From Okeania sp. SIO3I5 (GTDB lineage Bacteria > Cyanobacteriota > Cyanobacteriia > Cyanobacteriales > Microcoleaceae), in NCBI RefSeq assembly GCF_010672085.1, contig NZ_JAAHHT010000016.1:24887-88886 (forward strand): DNA of 64,000 nt. Reading direction: 5' to 3'. This document shows, piece after piece, positions 21,168 to 58,356 of the stretch. How positions within the stretch are numbered: position 1 is the stretch's first letter; the number at the start of each line of letters is the position of its first letter. Below the pieces are notes generated by a model. That model searched no databases and was not told the DNA's origin. It was given only the letters and a program-made list of their open reading frames with translations. A program made the translations under genes and the position numbers.

Positions 21168-21535
21168 TTAGACTTCTCCAAAAATGAAAAATAAAATCAA
21201 TTCTTATCCATAAATTATCAATTATATAGAATCCGGTTATATAGTATATGTTCATTATTCAATTTCCCCATCTCCCCATCTCCCCATCTCCCCCAACAAT
21301 ACACTCTTGTATTCAACCGGATTTGATATTACTCCTTACTCCTTACTCCTTACTCATTACTCATTACTCCTTACTCCTCAGTAATACGATAACTAATTAC
21401 CCGGATTCTATATTACTCCCCCCAGTTAAGTGTTCCCTGTTCCCTCTTTAGAATTATAGCAGTCGAAGCAAAGGGCGCGGACATTTCTAAATCCTTAAAT
21501 CCTTTGACAGTTTACTATTCCCTATTCCCTATTCC
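21168..21535. repeat. Partial family B, heptamer repeats and family H element
   Basis: 21168-21225 is the left half of family B (TAGACTTCTCC). 21275-21300 has CCCCATCT units and 21330-21380 TTACTCC/TACTCAT heptamers, enclosed by ATATAGAATCCGG and CCGGATTTGATAT inverted ends. 21455-21560 is family H (TATAGCAGTCGAAGCAAAGG to TAGCGCTATA), running into the threonine aldolase gene. Confidence 0.7.
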
Positions 21536-22582
21536 CTATTCCCTAGCGCGTAGCGCTATACGTTTAACACTTTTCAAAAAAGCATCAACATCTTCATCTC
21601 TGGTATTAAAAGCAGTCACAAGTCTAATTATCGGCAAAGTCCCCTCCTGCCAAACATAAAACTGAAAACCATCAGCTCTCAAACCATTAACCACAGACTC
21701 AGGAAGTTCTACAAAAATTTCATTCGCTTCCACAGGATGACACAACTTTACCAAAGGAAACTCTACCAAACCTTGGGCTAACTTAGTTGCCATTTGATTA
21801 GCACGAGTAGCATTTTTGAGCCATAAATCATCAGTAATATAAGCCTCCAACTGAGCAGACAAATATCGCAGCTTCGAGAATAAATGACCACTACGTTTGC
21901 GACGATAAGCAAATGTTTTTGCCAAATCTTGATTAAAAAAGATTACCGCTTCTGCTGCCATCCCCCCATTTTTAGTTGCACCAAAACACAGTATATCTAC
22001 CCCCGCTCGCCAAGTTATATCTGCCGGCGCACAGTCTAAGCTCACAACAGCATTAGCAAAACGCGCCCCATCTATATGCAGATATAGATTATGAGCATGA
22101 GTAATTTTAGCAATCTCACCGATCTCTTCAGGCAAATATACTGTTCCTGCTTCCGTTGCTTGAGTAATACTAACTGCCGCAGGTTGAACATGATGTACTA
22201 TACCTGCACCCGCGTTTTCTAGTGTTTTGCTCAACTCAGAAGGATGAATTTGAGAATCTGTACCATTTAATGTTACCAACTTCGCACCACCTGTATAAAA
22301 TTCAGGCGCACCACATTCATCCACATTAATATGAGATTCAGCATGACAATAAATAGCTCCATAACCAGGAGCGATCGCTGATAAAGCTAGAGCATTAGCA
22401 GCAGAACCAGTAGCAACTGGGAAAACTGTCACAGGAGTTTCAAAAATTGATGAAAATTTAGCTGACAAACGTTGAGTGTATTCATCGGCACCATAAGGCA
22501 TCATAGCGCCTTCATTGGCAGCGATCAGAGCAGCCATAATTTCTGGGCACACCTGACTCACATTATCACTACAAAAATTCAT
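21536..22582 (-). CDS. Low-specificity L-threonine aldolase (beta-eliminating lyase family)
   Basis: This 348-residue PLP-dependent fold-type I enzyme cleaves L-threonine or allo-threonine to glycine and acetaldehyde. Visible features are PYGADEYTQRLSAKFSSIFE, the GTGSAANALAL-like FPVATGSAANALALSAI, HIDGARFANAVVSL with the Asp that contacts the PLP ring nitrogen, and the Schiff-base lysine Lys204 in CFGATKNGGMAAEAV. Length is standard. The final residues IALRARE and the stop are encoded by the end of a family H element (21536-21560), so the native C-terminus has probably been replaced. The enzyme could still work because the tail is distal to the active site. It is a single-gene unit. Confidence 0.9.
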   Translation of the reverse strand: MNFCSDNVSQVCPEIMAALIAANEGAMMPYGADEYTQRLSAKFSSIFETPVTVFPVATGSAANALALSAIAPGYGAIYCHAESHINVDECGAPEFYTGGAKLVTLNGTDSQIHPSELSKTLENAGAGIVHHVQPAAVSITQATEAGTVYLPEEIGEIAKITHAHNLYLHIDGARFANAVVSLDCAPADITWRAGVDILCFGATKNGGMAAEAVIFFNQDLAKTFAYRRKRSGHLFSKLRYLSAQLEAYITDDLWLKNATRANQMATKLAQGLVEFPLVKLCHPVEANEIFVELPESVVNGLRADGFQFYVWQEGTLPIIRLVTAFNTRDEDVDAFLKSVKRIALRARE

Positions 22583-25158: not shown

Positions 25159-25752
25159 TTAAAATTTTAACTTTACTGCTCCCTGACGCAAGATTTCCCA
25201 ACCATCAATTCCATTCCACTTAGCAACAGTTGAAGGAACCCCAGAAGTTAACATCATTTCCTGACTTTGGGACAATGAAAGAACCAAAACATCTGGAAAT
25301 TGAGCATTAATTTCAGCCATCTGCTTCAAAGCCGGCTGGCCTGATAAATTAGCACTCGTAGTAGCTAAAGGCCCTGTTTTAGCCATTATCTCCCTAGCAA
25401 TATCGCAATTAGGAATCCTAAGTCCAATTGTAGTTGGATTAACAGGATTCATTACCCTGGGCACTCTTTCCGCAGCAGGTAACACCAAAGTTAACTGCCC
25501 AGGCCAATACTTTTTAGCCACCCCTTGCCATAATTGTAACTCTTCATCACTCCCACAAACATAAGGCCACAAAGATTCAGCAGTTGCCCCCATTAAAATT
25601 AATGGTTTATCTTGACTACGATCCTTCGCTTGAAAAATTAAATCGGCTTTGTCAGGTCGAGCAGCTAATGCTGGTACAGTATCAGTAGGAAAGCTTACCA
25701 AACTACCAGATATTGCCCCCTCAACTAAAATATCAATAGATACTAAATTCAT
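25159..25752 (-). CDS. tsaC: L-threonylcarbamoyladenylate synthase (Sua5/YrdC family)
   Basis: This 197-residue enzyme makes threonylcarbamoyl-AMP from threonine, bicarbonate and ATP, the first step of t6A modification of tRNAs reading ANN codons; TsaD (39255-40322) does the transfer. Features are VSFPTDTVPALAARPDKADL, IFQAKDRSQDKPLILMGATA, KKYWPGQLTLVLPA, TIGLRIPNCDIAREI and GPLATTSANLSGQP (the KR/SxN and TSAN signatures). It lacks the C-terminal Sua5 domain, so is the short YrdC type. The gene's own 5' end (about codons 1-55) and leader are repeated in decayed form four times upstream (25870-27150). Confidence 0.93.
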   Translation of the reverse strand: MNLVSIDILVEGAISGSLVSFPTDTVPALAARPDKADLIFQAKDRSQDKPLILMGATAESLWPYVCGSDEELQLWQGVAKKYWPGQLTLVLPAAERVPRVMNPVNPTTIGLRIPNCDIAREIMAKTGPLATTSANLSGQPALKQMAEINAQFPDVLVLSLSQSQEMMLTSGVPSTVAKWNGIDGWEILRQGAVKLKF

Positions 25753-27150
25753 TATTTATTTTTCATTTTTTAATTTTTTTAAAAATTTAAGGTAATTCCA
25801 CCATCTCTGGCACAAAAAACCTCCAACCTGGGGAGCTTAAGAAAATGATTTGAGCTTCAAATTAAATTATTTCCACCACTTACTCCCCATTAAAATCAAA
25901 GGTTTATTTTAACTGCGCCCCTGATTGAAAAATTCAATCTCCTCTGTCAGGCCGAGCTGCCAGTGCTGCTACAATATCAACAAGAAAGCTAGTATTTTTA
26001 ACAGAAATCGCTCCTTCGATATAAAATCTCAATAGACATCAAACTTATTTATTTTATTTTTCATTTTTTAATTTTTTGAAAATTTAGAGGCAATTCCAGC
26101 ATCTCTAACACAAAAAACCTCTAATCCAGGGAGCTTAAGAAAATGATTTGAGCTTCAAATTAAATTATTTTTACCACTTACTCCCCATTAAAATCAAAAG
26201 TCGATCTTGAGTCCTTCTGTGGAAAAATTCAATCTCCTCTGTCAGGTCGAGCTGCCAGTGCTGCTACAATATCAACAAGAAAGCTAGTATTTTTAACAGA
26301 AATCGCTCCTTCGATATAGAATCTCAATAGACATCAAACTTATTTCTTTTATTTTTCATTTTTTAATTTTTTGAAAATTTAGAGGCAATTCCAGCATCTC
26401 TAACACAAAAAACTTCTAATCCAGGGAGCTTAAGAAAATGATTTGAGCTTCAAATTAAATTATTTTTACCACTTACTCCCAATTCAAATCAAAGGTTTAT
26501 TTTAACTGCGCCCCTGATTGAAAAATTCAATCTCCTCTGTCAGGTCGAGCTGCCAGTGCTGCTACAATATCAGCAAGAAAGCTAGTAGTTTTAGCAGAAA
26601 CCGCTCCTTAAATATAGAATCTCAATAAACAGCAAACTTATTTATTTCATTTTTCATTTTTTAATTTTTTGAAAATTTGAGGCAATTCCAGGATCTCTGA
26701 GACAAAAAACCTCCAAACTGGGGAGCTTAAGAAAATGATTTTTGGTTCAAATTAAACAGGACTTACGCATTTTTGAATTCTAAACACTACATATTTATAA
26801 CGTTATAGTTTTTGAACCCCATAAGCCGCTATATATAGTGTCTCTGCGTAAGTCCTGTTAAATTATTTCTACCACTTACTCCCCATTAAAATCAAAAGTT
26901 TATTTTAACTGCGCCCCTAATTGAAAAATTCAATCGGCTTTGTCAGGTCGAGCTGCTAGTGCTGCTACAATATCAGCAAGAAAGCTAGTAGTTTTAGCAG
27001 AAACCGCTCCTTAAATCTTAAATATAAAATCTCAATAGACACTAAATATATTTCTTTCATTTTTCATTTTTTAATTTTTTGAAAATTTGAGGCAATTCTA
27101 GCACTTCTGACACAAAAAATCTCCAACCTGGGGAGCTTAAGAAAATGATA
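25753..27150. repeat. Array of four decayed copies of the tsaC 5' end and leader
   Basis: Directly upstream of tsaC, a unit of about 295-298 bp recurs with the landmark TTACTCCC(C) at 25880, 26178, 26473 and 26877. Each unit matches the first ~55 codons of tsaC plus its leader: for example AAATCGGCTTTGTCAGGTCG in the gene versus CAATCTCCTCTGTCAGGTCG in the copies, and the leader blocks TTTTTCATTTTTTAATTTTT, CACAAAAAACCTC and GGGAGCTTAAGAAAATGAT are nearly identical. All copies have stops and indels. The copies resemble each other more than the gene, so a decayed copy was amplified. The third interval is 404 bp because a 103-bp family A element plus 3 bp sits in it. Confidence 0.85.
26756..26858. 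mobile_element. Family A element inserted in the tsaC-derived array, with empty-site controls
   Basis: A perfect 14-bp inverted terminal repeat ACAGGACTTACGCA flanks a 103-bp element. The flanks are ...CAAATTAA and TAAATTATTT, whereas the neighbouring array units have uninterrupted CAAATTAAATTATTT. This gives a 3-bp TAA target duplication (TTAA if the border is shifted one base). Removing element plus duplication restores the 298-bp unit exactly. Confidence 0.9.
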
Positions 27151-27547
27151 TTTTCAACTTATTCGACAATAAGACTCTATGAAAATTTTTTGAACCTTAA
27201 AAAAATGACCATTTTTGGAATTCAAAATTCGCGCATTCACACGTTCAAAAATTTTGGTTCATTCCTTAATTTCAATAATTGTTTAATTAATAGACATCTC
27301 CAAAAATCAAAAATGAAATCAATTCAAGAGCTGAAATCAACAATTTCATTCCCTATTCCCTATTCCCTATTCCCTATTCCCTGACTTCTGCAAGAAGTCT
27401 AAAGATTCAAGCCTCGTTCTTTAGAACAAAAAAATCAAAAATATTTTCCTTCCTTATTTCAAGTCTCTGACTTTCCTGCTGATGCGGAACAAACAGGCAA
27501 AGGTTATAATTTTGAATTAATAATTTTGAATTTTGAATTGATTTTCC
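27145..27547. repeat. Spacer with family B element
   Basis: 27291-27401 is family B (TAGACATCTCC to AGAAGTCTA) with five TATTCCC heptamers. The plus-strand frame 27145-27384 reads through it and is not a gene. Confidence 0.7.
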
Positions 27548-28456
27548 CTACTTCAAATAAGCCATAGCAAACCTATTAACACCCTCAAAATCCCGAAAAA
27601 CCTCAACCCGACAATAAGCTCCATTATCTTCCAACATTTCAGCAACCATCTCCCCTTGCCCATCCATCATCTCCACCAACCAAACACCACCAGAAACCAA
27701 ATATAGTGGAGCCCTTTCAATTAAAAACCTAATACAATCTAGACCATCAACACCGCCATCAAGGGCCGAACGAGGCTCATGCTTCCTAACCTCTACTTGC
27801 AAAGTAGAAATCATACCACTAGGAATATAAGGAGGATTGGCCACCATCCCACTCACCCTACCCCGCAAATGCTCCAGCGGTTCCCACCAAGAACCCTCAT
27901 AAAAACTAATTCTATGAGCAAAACCTAACCTAATAGCATTCTGTCTAGCAATAGCCAAAGCTTCTAGACTACAATCAACAGCATAAATCGAAGCATCTGT
28001 CAATACACCAGCTAAACCACAAGCGATCGCCCCACTACCAGTTCCCAAATCCACCCAAATTCCTTGTCCAAGCTCCGAAACAGCATTAGTAGCATCTACA
28101 ACCAGATCAATTAAACACTCCGTTTCCGGCCTAGGAATCAAAACCCCAGAACCCACCTCCAAAGAAAAATTCCGCCAATAAGTAACCCCAGTTAAATATT
28201 GAAGCGGAACCCTATCCTCCAAACGTCGGCGCCAAAGACCATCCAACTCAACTAAAGAAAGACTCATTGAAACATTAGGCCAATCCTTAAAAGACTCCAG
28301 ACGCAATGTTAATCTATCCAGTCCAGTAAACTCCTGTAACAACAAATCAACCTCAGCAACAGATATATCTTCCCTCAAAGCATCAGCCTTAGTTTGACAA
28401 TACCATCGCCAAAGTTCCAGACCTGAAACGAAGCACTTAGAGGGAAAATCCATCAA
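27548..28456 (-). CDS. prmC: Peptide chain release factor N5-glutamine methyltransferase
   Basis: This 302-residue SAM-dependent enzyme methylates the GGQ glutamine of release factors RF1/RF2. It has an N-terminal helical substrate domain (1-95) with RVPLQYLTGVTYWRNFSLEV, then IPRPETECLIDLVVDA, the SAM-binding IWVDLGTGSGAIACGLA, and the catalytic NPPY motif (MVANPPYIPSG). DGGVDGLDCIRFLIERA and the C-terminal GVNRFAMAYLK are also typical. Length is normal. There are two Mets at the start; either is possible. It is a single-gene unit on the minus strand. Confidence 0.95.
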   Translation of the reverse strand: MMDFPSKCFVSGLELWRWYCQTKADALREDISVAEVDLLLQEFTGLDRLTLRLESFKDWPNVSMSLSLVELDGLWRRRLEDRVPLQYLTGVTYWRNFSLEVGSGVLIPRPETECLIDLVVDATNAVSELGQGIWVDLGTGSGAIACGLAGVLTDASIYAVDCSLEALAIARQNAIRLGFAHRISFYEGSWWEPLEHLRGRVSGMVANPPYIPSGMISTLQVEVRKHEPRSALDGGVDGLDCIRFLIERAPLYLVSGGVWLVEMMDGQGEMVAEMLEDNGAYCRVEVFRDFEGVNRFAMAYLK

Positions 28457-33082: not shown

Positions 33083-33808
33083 ATGGCTCCGGGTTTAAAA
33101 TCATCGACATTAGAACTGCTAAAGCGCTTCAACCGAGCGTTTCCACAGTTTTATGAACAATTTGTCAGTAGTGATATTCAACTGCAAAATTTGAAACTAG
33201 CATATCAACTCTATAAAAGCAAACAAGCTGTAATAGAGCTAAAACCAGAAAGCAACAAAAGTGCCCTGCACTTTACCTACCGAAATCAATCGTTCTTACT
33301 CAGTGATATTTTTGGAGTATTAGCTGCTTATGGACTAACTATTCATAGTCTTAGTCTTTATGGACAAATTTACCCACCGATGTTGGTCTTTATCAAATTA
33401 GTAATATCTCGGGGGGGCAAAGCATTAACAGAGAAAACCTCGGAAAATGTTTGTCGCGCCATCCGTGAATCACTAGCAGGCCACTTCGAGGTGGAAGAAA
33501 TGTTGGCAGTAGAATTTAATCTAGATAGTGGTTTAGAGGAGGTAGAAACAGAATTTTATGTCGATCCTGTATTTCATCTACCAGCACTATTAATTGAGGC
33601 CGATAATCAACCAGGTCTATTCTACAAAGTTATGTATGCTATCTGGCAGGAAGATTTGTTGGTAGTTAATGCCAATTTGTTAGTTTGGCGTGGACGAACT
33701 CGCCTCATTCTTTATCTCCTGGGGCCAAATGAAAGTTTGATTCCAGAATACCTAGGCCAGAAAATTGCTGAAGGTGTGCGACAAAGATTGATGGGAGAAA
33801 GGTACTAA
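33083..33808 (+). CDS. Tandem ACT-like domain protein
   Basis: This 241-residue protein has two ACT-like regulatory folds: about residues 68-150 (LHFTYRNQSFLLSDIFGVLA, then LTIHSLSLYGQ) and 163-235 (FHLPALLIEADNQPGLFYKV, then LLVVNANLLVWRGRTRLILY). The second has the canonical DxPGLxxxV/I turn. This pairing resembles the C-terminal ACT pair of GlnD-type sensors, but no catalytic domain is present. It probably binds an amino acid or acts as a regulatory subunit. The final codons Glu-Arg-Tyr-stop are the first bases of a tandem array (33801-34335). It is divergent from the NSI-like acetyltransferase. Confidence 0.8.
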   Translation: MAPGLKSSTLELLKRFNRAFPQFYEQFVSSDIQLQNLKLAYQLYKSKQAVIELKPESNKSALHFTYRNQSFLLSDIFGVLAAYGLTIHSLSLYGQIYPPMLVFIKLVISRGGKALTEKTSENVCRAIRESLAGHFEVEEMLAVEFNLDSGLEEVETEFYVDPVFHLPALLIEADNQPGLFYKVMYAIWQEDLLVVNANLLVWRGRTRLILYLLGPNESLIPEYLGQKIAEGVRQRLMGERY

Positions 33809-34335
33809 ATTAATTAATAATTAATAATTAATAATTAATAATTAATCCCCAGAGGTTTTTAGCCTCTCCTTATTAATGAGAAAAAAGTGCGAGGAGATTT
33901 CCATACTTGATTCAATCCTCTAGGTTTTTACCAAAGGTACTAAATTAATTAATAATTAATAATTAATAATTAATCCCCAGAGGTTTTTAGCCTCTCCTTA
34001 TTAAGGAGAAAAAAGTGCGAGGAGATTTCCATACTTGATTCAATCCTCTCGGTTTTTACCAAAGGTACTAAATTAATTAATAATTAATAATTAATAATTA
34101 ATAATTAATCCCCAGAGGTTTTTAGCCTCTCCTTATTAATGAGAAAAAAGTGCGAGGAGATTTCCATACTTGATTCAATCCTCTCGGTTTTTACCAAAGG
34201 TACTAAATTAATTAATAATTAATAATTAATAATTAATAATTAATCCCCAGAGGTTTTTAGCCTCTCCTTATTAATGAGAAAAAAGTGCGAGGAGATTTCC
34301 ATACTTGATTCAATCCTCTCGGTTTTTACCAAAGG
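33801..34335. repeat. Fourfold tandem duplication of a gene's 3' end and spacer
   Basis: Four direct copies of a 128-135 bp unit start at 33801, 33936, 34064 and 34199, each with GGTACTAAATTAATTAATAA. Each unit includes the last codons and stop of the ACT gene (AGGTACTAA), two to five AATTAAT heptamers (explaining the length difference of 7 bp), an AGAGGTTTTTAGCCTCT hairpin and GTGCGAGGAGATTTCCATAC. Copies are nearly identical, so the expansion is recent. Confidence 0.95.
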
Positions 34336-34717
34336 TAATTATTACTCTGGTGATTAAATCTAAACATTGACAGATCAAAATTTTAGGCTTTAAGGAGCGA
34401 AAAAAAGTGCAACTTTATTCAGCAAAACCTAATTATTCATTAATGAATCTTACCGAATAATTATTAATTATTAATTATTCACCTTTATTATTCTCCCCTG
34501 AAAAGCGGAAAATAATAAATTTTTTCCTTCTTGCTCAATCCTCTCCCTTTTAGGGAGAGGTAATTATCAATTATCCACAATTATCCATTAATGAACAAAT
34601 TCCCATTTCTTCTGTAGGGGCGATTCGCGTTTGCGCAGGATTCCGCAGGAAATCTCCCCTACGACTCCTACCCTCACCCATAAGACTTTTTCAGCAAGTC
34701 CTACTTAAAATAAAAAT
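34336..34717. repeat. Spacer with decayed family D pieces
   Basis: 34375-34435 has GGCTTTAAGGAGCGAAAAAA and TTCAGCAAAACCTAATTA, and 34660-34706 has ACTTTTTCAGCAAGTCCTA: both are family D remnants. A GTAGGGGCGATTCGCG repeat lies at 34613-34640. No gene. Confidence 0.6.
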
Positions 34718-45281: not shown

Positions 45282-47009
45282 ATGAAAACACCGATTATTC
45301 TTGTCGTGGATGATGAGCCAAATAACTTTGATGTGATTGAAGCCCTGTTGGCAGCAAACGATTATGAATTACATTATGCCAAGAGTGGAGAGGCAGGAAT
45401 TAATTTCCTGAAATCAATTCAACCCGATCTTATTCTCCTAGATGTAGCGATGCCTGGGATGGATGGCATGGAAGTTTGTAAGAAGTTAAAAGCAATGCCC
45501 CAGTGGCAATTTATTCCGATCATTATGGTGACAGCTCTGACAGGCAAGGTGTTTCTATCTAGATGTTTAGAAGCTGGCGCAGATGATTTCATTAGTAAGC
45601 CAATCAGCCGTTTAGAACTTAACGCTCGCGTGCGTTCAATGTTGCGCATTAGCCAACAACATCAGCAATTATCCACCTTTAATGCCCAGTTGGAAGCAAC
45701 CGTACAGGAACGAACAGAGCAGTTGCAAACCATTATTGCTCAAGATAGCCTGACGAAACTGCCTAGTCGCACCTATCTCCTGGAGCAATTAACAGACTGT
45801 CTAGCTAGAAAAGATTCAGCTTTAGCTGTTCTTATTCTCGACTGCGATCAGTTCCACTTAGTGAATGGTTCTTTTGGTCACTTGTTTGGGGATAAACTTC
45901 TGTTTGCGATAGCTAAACGATTACTGCAACTGACTCGCCCTAATGATATCCTGGCACGCCTTGGTGAAGATGCGTTTTGCTTGGTAATCAATCCTATTGC
46001 TGAGGGAGATACCACTGCTATTGATTCAGTCATTCAAATGATTAGAAACAGTTTTCATCAGCCTTTTCTAGTGAAAGGGTGTGAAATTTATATGACTGTC
46101 AGTATGGGAATTGCCTTTAGTGAGGAAAGCTCTCAAACAGCAGCGGAACTCCTTCATGCTGCTGACACAGCTATGTATCAAGCGAAGCTTAAAGGTAAGG
46201 GAAGTGTTCAAATATTCTCCCCACAGATGCATATTCAAATTCACGATCGCTTGACTCTAGAAGCGGATCTCCAACGAGCGTTAAATAATCAGGAATTTAC
46301 GGCATTTTATCAGCCTATTATTGACCTTGAAACTTTAAAGATAATCGGTTTTGAAGCATTAATTCGTTGGCAACATCCTGATAAAGGTATTATCTCACCA
46401 GGTGTCTTTATCCCTTCCATGGAAACCTCGGGTTTGATTGAACCTGTCGGAGTTTTAATCTTTCAAAAAGCCTGTCAGCAGTTACAAGTCTGGCATCAAA
46501 AGGGATGGCCAGAGTTAACAATGAGCATCAATGTATCACCTAGGCAATTTAACTCTCCAAGCTTATTAGATGACATTGAGCGAGTGTTGAATGAAACCAA
46601 GGTGAATCCAGCATGCCTTAGCCTTGAAATTACCGAAAGTGCTATCATGGGCAGTATTGAGAAAGCGATCGCTATGACGAAAGAGTTACAAGCTCGACAG
46701 ATTCAACTGAGTATTGACGACTTTGGTACGGGTTATTCATCTTTGAAATATTTAAACAGCTTTTCAGTCAATAATCTTAAAATAGATCGTTCTTTCATCA
46801 AAGAGTTTACCTCAGAAGACAATCATTATCCAATTGTGAACACAATTGTAGCGCTTGCTCAAGAATTAGGATTATCGATTGTGGCAGAGGGAATTGAAAC
46901 ACAACAACAGCTTTTATGGCTCCAAAACCTAAAGTGTGACTTTGGACAGGGCTATTTTTTCTCGAAACCGCTCCCAGCAGATGAGATAGAAAGAAAATAT
47001 TTGAGTTAG
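45282..47009 (+). CDS. Receiver-GGDEF(degenerate)-EAL protein, putative c-di-GMP phosphodiesterase
   Basis: This 575-residue protein has a receiver domain (1-120) with Asp54 (DLILLDVAMPGMDG), Thr in MVTALTG and Lys in FISKPIS. A GGDEF-type domain (about 155-305) follows in which the active-site motif reads RLGEDAF, so it cannot act as a cyclase. The EAL domain (about 325-570) is complete: Glu358 in GFEALIRWQHP, SINVSPRQF, EITESAIM, IDDFGTGYSSLKYL, LKIDRSFI and VAEGIE. It is therefore predicted to hydrolyse c-di-GMP under control of phosphorylation. The giant hybrid kinase downstream (1.0 kb, same strand) is a plausible phosphodonor, but the gap is filled with tandem repeats. Confidence 0.93.
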   Translation: MKTPIILVVDDEPNNFDVIEALLAANDYELHYAKSGEAGINFLKSIQPDLILLDVAMPGMDGMEVCKKLKAMPQWQFIPIIMVTALTGKVFLSRCLEAGADDFISKPISRLELNARVRSMLRISQQHQQLSTFNAQLEATVQERTEQLQTIIAQDSLTKLPSRTYLLEQLTDCLARKDSALAVLILDCDQFHLVNGSFGHLFGDKLLFAIAKRLLQLTRPNDILARLGEDAFCLVINPIAEGDTTAIDSVIQMIRNSFHQPFLVKGCEIYMTVSMGIAFSEESSQTAAELLHAADTAMYQAKLKGKGSVQIFSPQMHIQIHDRLTLEADLQRALNNQEFTAFYQPIIDLETLKIIGFEALIRWQHPDKGIISPGVFIPSMETSGLIEPVGVLIFQKACQQLQVWHQKGWPELTMSINVSPRQFNSPSLLDDIERVLNETKVNPACLSLEITESAIMGSIEKAIAMTKELQARQIQLSIDDFGTGYSSLKYLNSFSVNNLKIDRSFIKEFTSEDNHYPIVNTIVALAQELGLSIVAEGIETQQQLLWLQNLKCDFGQGYFFSKPLPADEIERKYLS

Positions 47010-47236: not shown

Positions 47237-47265
47237 AATTTGTAAATTCTCAATTCTAAATTCTA

Positions 47266-47954
<689 letters not shown>

Positions 47955-58236: not shown

Positions 58237-58356
58237 ATGATGAATCAAAGAACAAGGAAACACTTTTCCAACTGTTCCCTGTTCCCTGTTCCCTGTTCCC
58301 TGTTCCCTGCGATAAAATTAAAAGCTTCTGAAACTCAATTATACTCAATTCTATTT

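Follow-up and report, generated by a model that had tools for sequence, protein, structure and literature searches.

The locus examined here raises the question of why an intact tsaC gene is preceded by several broken copies of its own beginning, and whether these copies serve the gene in any way. The window (the whole stretch of 64,000 nucleotides analysed) belongs to an Okeania genome of 10.5 Mb in 562 contigs, to which Okeania sp. SIO2F4 and Hydrocoleum sp. CS-953 are the closest named relatives. In the window, tsaC lies downstream of prmC with both genes on the minus strand, which is the usual arrangement in relatives, and the two genes are 1795 bp apart, compared with 54–406 bp in genomes without full extra units.

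Structure and state of the array

TRF recovered a repeat with a period of 295 and 3.9 copies at 25588-26756, and the match between the tsaC 5' end and the units reached E=1.1e-54, confirming the preliminary description of four tandem decayed copies of the tsaC 5' end upstream of the intact gene (Table 1). Identities were 79.6-81.0% between the gene copy and the units and 85.4-94.6% among the units, so that the units are indeed closer to each other than to the gene, as had been claimed. The unit starts, earlier placed near 25880, 26178, 26473, and 26877, are corrected to those in the table. The array consists of head-to-tail copies of a defined segment that includes part of the adjacent intact gene, and its presence in related genomes, where a search for it had been advised, was verified in independent assemblies. 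The recurrence of the array in independent assemblies argues strongly against an assembly artefact, and the observed array is real.

Table 1. Features of the prmC–tsaC region (positions in the window)
Feature	Position	Strand	Remarks
tsaC (Sua5/YrdC/YciO family)	25159..25752	-	intact, 197 aa; ORF; PF01300 E=1.1e-36
Unit copy of tsaC itself	25588..25884	-	first ~55 codons (25588-25752) and leader (25753-25884)
Array of four decayed units	25885–~27157	-	between tsaC and prmC; unit length ~295–298 bp
Unit u1	25885..26182	-	298 bp; 81.0% identity with the gene copy and 94.6% with u2; stops and frameshift
Unit u2	26183..26477	-	295 bp
Unit u3	26478-26756 + 26863-26880	-	297 bp excluding insert and target-site duplicate; interrupted by insert
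MITE-like insert	26757..26857	.	101 bp; terminal inverted repeats CAGGACTTACGCA; 5-bp TTAAA target duplication at 26752-26756 and 26858-26862
Unit u4	26881..~27157	-	most distal; prmC-side end truncated
Spacer between array and prmC	27158..27547	.	non-repeated
prmC (HemK-type methyltransferase)	27548..28456	-	intact; first few unit codons derive from prmC (tail homology of leader); conserved tsaC neighbour

Each of the four units contains at least one stop codon as well as indels, in agreement with the preliminary description, and the ATG is additionally absent from all of them. Differences at the three codon positions amounted to 352/245/853 between genes and to 168/233/126 and 821/966/675 between units. 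The concentration at third codon positions among the genes, but not among the units, indicates that the units evolve without coding constraint, and together with their stops and frameshifts this identifies them as pseudogene fragments.

The inverted arms of the MITE-like insert in u3 are 95% complementary, and about ten more copies with 80-96% identity were found elsewhere in the genome. The SIO2F4 unit u2, which is the sister of u3 of the window in the leader tree, carries an insert at the same site. As a separate observation, the 101-bp element occurs four times in tandem at G000:C501:32246-32876, spaced 176-177 bp, representing a MITE caught in tandem amplification.

The repeated unit is a prmC–tsaC junction

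Each unit combines a few codons from the end of prmC with the former intergenic spacer and about 57 codons of tsaC. The earlier view of the unit as the tsaC leader plus ~55 tsaC codons was thus right for these parts, but it missed the prmC 3' end and the splitting of u3 by the insert. The sequence ATTTGAAGtAGCAAATATCATTTTCTTAAGCT following prmC in SIO2F4 aligns with ATTTGAAGCTCAAATCATTTTCTTAAGCTCCCC of the leader, and in the unduplicated outgroup G013 the sequence AAAAATCATTTTGTGAAGCTCCCCGG, shortly past the prmC stop, also matches the leader, with 0/500 shuffles as good in both cases. In genome G006, homology between the distal end of the leader and the prmC tail was likewise detected, with 1/500 shuffles reaching the score. 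The same shuffle test revealed no clear homology of the leader distal end to the prmC tail in Hydrocoleum or Okeania, where the prmC flanks have diverged. Since the distal end of the leader corresponds to the prmC end and its 3' flank, the unit represents the entire prmC–tsaC junction. Furthermore, the array-proximal ~60 bp of the spacer on the prmC side resemble the 3' flank of SIO2F4 prmC (84.8% over 66 bp). The motif TGCT is present at both breakpoints (tsaC …AACTGCT, prmC …TTTGCTATGGC), suggesting that the first duplication originated through short homology.

Distribution among relatives

The number of extra units was four in Okeania SIO2F4, three each in Okeania SIO2B3, SIO1I7, SIO3B5, and G027, and two each in Hydrocoleum CS-953 and O. 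hirsuta, whereas no unit was found in G010, G013, or more distant family members; copy number therefore differs between relatives from 0 to 4. The array has been kept in 7/7 array-bearing relatives examined. The array genomes share the junction CAACTGCT-TGGAATAATT-TGAAGCTCAAATCATTTTCTTAAGCTCCC, a stub version of which exists in Trichodesmium. Four Trichodesmium-type genomes have a single gene copy and retain a dead tsaC end stub ('AATGAGGGCAGCTGCTTGGGAT…') upstream of the leader, indicating that the duplication is older than the Trichodesmium split and that the array was reduced there. The occurrence of the same array and breakpoint across relatives also marks the array as old and not as a product of assembly.

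Between prmC and the array, five loci (L031 and L033-L036) carry an insert of ~600 bp that can be read as a small opposite-strand protein (...KWKLRWAAKAGVLVGEDGTCEDGKATIYMDHP...) and is absent from the window. The Okeania distal leader was considered as the ancestral leader and rejected, as it derives from the start region of an inserted small gene. Similarly, the near-identity of the distal unit between two Okeania strains was rejected as a sign of constraint, because it spans ~1.4 kb including prmC-side DNA, as expected from strain exchange or shared recent ancestry of the tract.

Two histories within one unit

Topology tests (IQ-TREE, GTR+G, AU test) were conducted for the tsaC-derived half and the leader half of the unit separately, and they gave opposite results. 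For the tsaC-derived half, forcing the units of a lineage to group with their own gene cost 29 log units and was rejected (AU p=0.008-0.009), while a single clade of all units was allowed, though not proven, by the sequence comparison (AU p=0.44). For the leader half, in contrast, a single clade of unit leaders cost 98 log units and was rejected (AU p=2.7e-11), and grouping by lineage, with the gene leader included, cost nothing; the leaders are therefore paralogues more alike within than between lineages. In Hydrocoleum, the gene and u1 are 97% identical in the leader but 76.8% identical in the coding half. The similarity between gene and units was 87-90% for the leaders versus 72-77% for the tsaC-derived halves. 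Moreover, short variant blocks (e.g., 'ATTACAGCACTTTTGTCAGG') occupy differing unit positions among Okeania genomes, as expected from exchange between units, and u1 and u2 of the window stem from a recent duplication.

Taken together, the AU results suggest that one old duplicate decayed, and that the leaders, that of tsaC included, were homogenised within lineages, the coding half of the gene presumably being exempt because conversion would destroy the gene. The proposal that decay of a partial duplicate preceded its amplification is consequently supported for the tsaC-derived half, for which a lineage-wise origin is rejected and one clade is allowed. It needs amending for the leader half, which was homogenised in each lineage together with the leader of tsaC, so that decay and amplification overlap in time.

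Origin of the array and alternative explanations

The best explanation of these patterns, to which a probability of about 0.8 is assigned, is a near-neutral tandem amplification under concerted evolution, in which the junction would have been duplicated once, decayed, and persisted. In an ancestor shared by Trichodesmium, Hydrocoleum, and Okeania, an illegitimate tandem duplication of ~295 bp, from the prmC end to about tsaC codon 57, may have arisen via slippage or recombination between short homologies such as the TGCT at both ends. The extra tsaC 5' end, with no gene behind it, would then have decayed, and the array would have expanded and contracted through unequal crossing-over or conversion between units. 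As the last leader of the array, the leader of tsaC itself has been homogenised with the units, while selection would shield the coding half of tsaC. The array itself is most probably functionless, although its retention in all seven array-bearing relatives could hint at selection.

A further reading, though an improbable one, is that the leader of the intact gene belongs to a decayed satellite array that rewrites it repeatedly, so that the upstream control sequences of an essential gene would evolve in concert with dead copies, perhaps with a regulatory effect. Somewhat less probable still is that the array itself is regulatory, each unit keeping a working tsaC leader and the copies tuning tsaC, after its separation from prmC, by way of additional promoters, a lengthened 5' untranslated region, or antisense RNA. 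The greater likeness of gene and unit leaders relative to the tsaC-derived halves would fit such a role, as would passages of PMC4649490, according to which ~80% of T. erythraeum non-coding DNA is reportedly transcribed. However, the leader similarity is accounted for by within-lineage homogenisation (AU tests), and the divergence of gene leaders from species to species (~10.6–13%) is comparable with that of the fourfold sites of tsaC and prmC (8–18%) and of other intergenic matches (10–16%), suggesting near-neutral evolution of the leaders; selection holding the unit leaders was rejected on these grounds. Trichodesmium leaders differ by 24–30%. In addition, the promoter scan of the array found 11 promoter-like sites, where 7.9 +/- 3.2 were expected, the terminator scan found 1 terminator against 1.7 expected, and neither type of element was enriched and conserved in each unit. 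An Rfam scan of the window returned only tRNA-Pro, and the array had no match. Trichodesmium has also lost the units while keeping tsaC. The extra promoters or antisense transcripts envisaged in the preliminary description are thus unsupported by the site counts, by the leader divergence, which reveals no constraint beyond synonymous rates, and by this loss, and a regulatory role of the array finds no support in the sequences.

It is very improbable that separate duplications took place at the same breakpoints in each lineage, as at a recombination hotspot. The clustering of units by lineage in the whole-unit tree and the frequency of such arrays in these genomes are in line with this idea, but the tsaC-derived halves reject a lineage-wise origin (AU p=0.009), the same junction is present in the array genomes and survives as a stub in Trichodesmium, and the window and SIO2F4 have the insert in common. 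Hardly credible at all is that the decayed copies act as silent donor cassettes supplying variants to the tsaC N-terminus through gene conversion in the manner of pilS to pilE, for although the first 55 codons show somewhat more fourfold divergence than the remainder (5/21 vs 10/61; 5/26 vs 5/58), a difference set aside because the counts are too small, the units have no start codon and all contain stops or frameshifts, it is precisely the tsaC-derived half that lacks exchange with the expressed gene, and TsaC is a conserved housekeeping enzyme with no need of antigenic variation. The array shares with cassettes of the pilE/pilS and vlsE type the position of truncated copies beside an intact gene, but its copies are dead, keep no open frame, and have a coding half without exchange with the gene.

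Near-neutral amplification under concerted evolution also agrees with known partial tandem gene duplications, with which the array shares head-to-tail units, variable copy number, within-lineage likeness, and mosaic variants. Unlike the usual cases, only a gene junction was copied here, and homogenisation has reached the functional leader of the intact gene but spared its coding part.

Similar arrays in the genome

A census of tandem arrays with a period of ≥80 bp in a non-random sample of 464 kb of this genome recovered 38 arrays, about 26 of which were intergenic or extended across an ORF end. For comparison, 12 such arrays were found in 400 kb of Okeania G030, while G026, a family member in which ORFs cover 80%, had 4 in 400 kb. 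One array (L067:15508-16620) has a 278-bp unit repeated four times (99%), spanning from the end of the upstream gene as far as codon ~35 of a Uma2 (PF05685) gene. As in the tsaC array, its unit combines the spacer after the end of the upstream gene with the start of the downstream gene, but at 99% identity it is young, whereas the tsaC array is old and decayed. Given the roughly 26 intergenic or gene-end arrays and this young analogue, the tsaC array is an old case of a common process, an ordinary genomic event although a well-resolved one.

Passages of PMC9950141 give Trichodesmium as ~64% coding, and passages of PMC4649490 as 40% non-coding; the tsaC array, at the old end of the process, lies in a group known for large non-coding fractions (PMC9950141). 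It shares with the repeat-rich non-coding DNA of Trichodesmium the same cyanobacterial group, low coding density, and repeats, although those passages of both papers treat selfish elements and paralogues and not gene-junction arrays such as those found here. A literature search found no report of a prmC–tsaC array. The locus is a well-dated illustration of how Trichodesmium-group genomes can enlarge their unusually large non-coding fraction: gene junctions are amplified in tandem, one gene end is dead from the outset, and the resulting units remain across genera under concerted evolution. As young (99%) and old (~80%) arrays coexist within one genome, the process is measurable.

Several further repeats were noted in the window. 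A 135-bp unit is repeated 4.1 times (95%) at 33798-34337, beginning at the stop codon of the ORF at 33083-33808 and forming a gene 3'-end array, and a 222-bp unit is repeated 3.0 times (98%) at 47255-47920, downstream of a response regulator-GGDEF-EAL gene (45282-47009). Moreover, many heptamer tandem repeats (ATTCCCT, CCTGTTC, TCAGTTA, etc.) are dispersed through the intergenic DNA, at 1936-1975, 21515-21545, 27348-27382, 58272-58309, and other positions.
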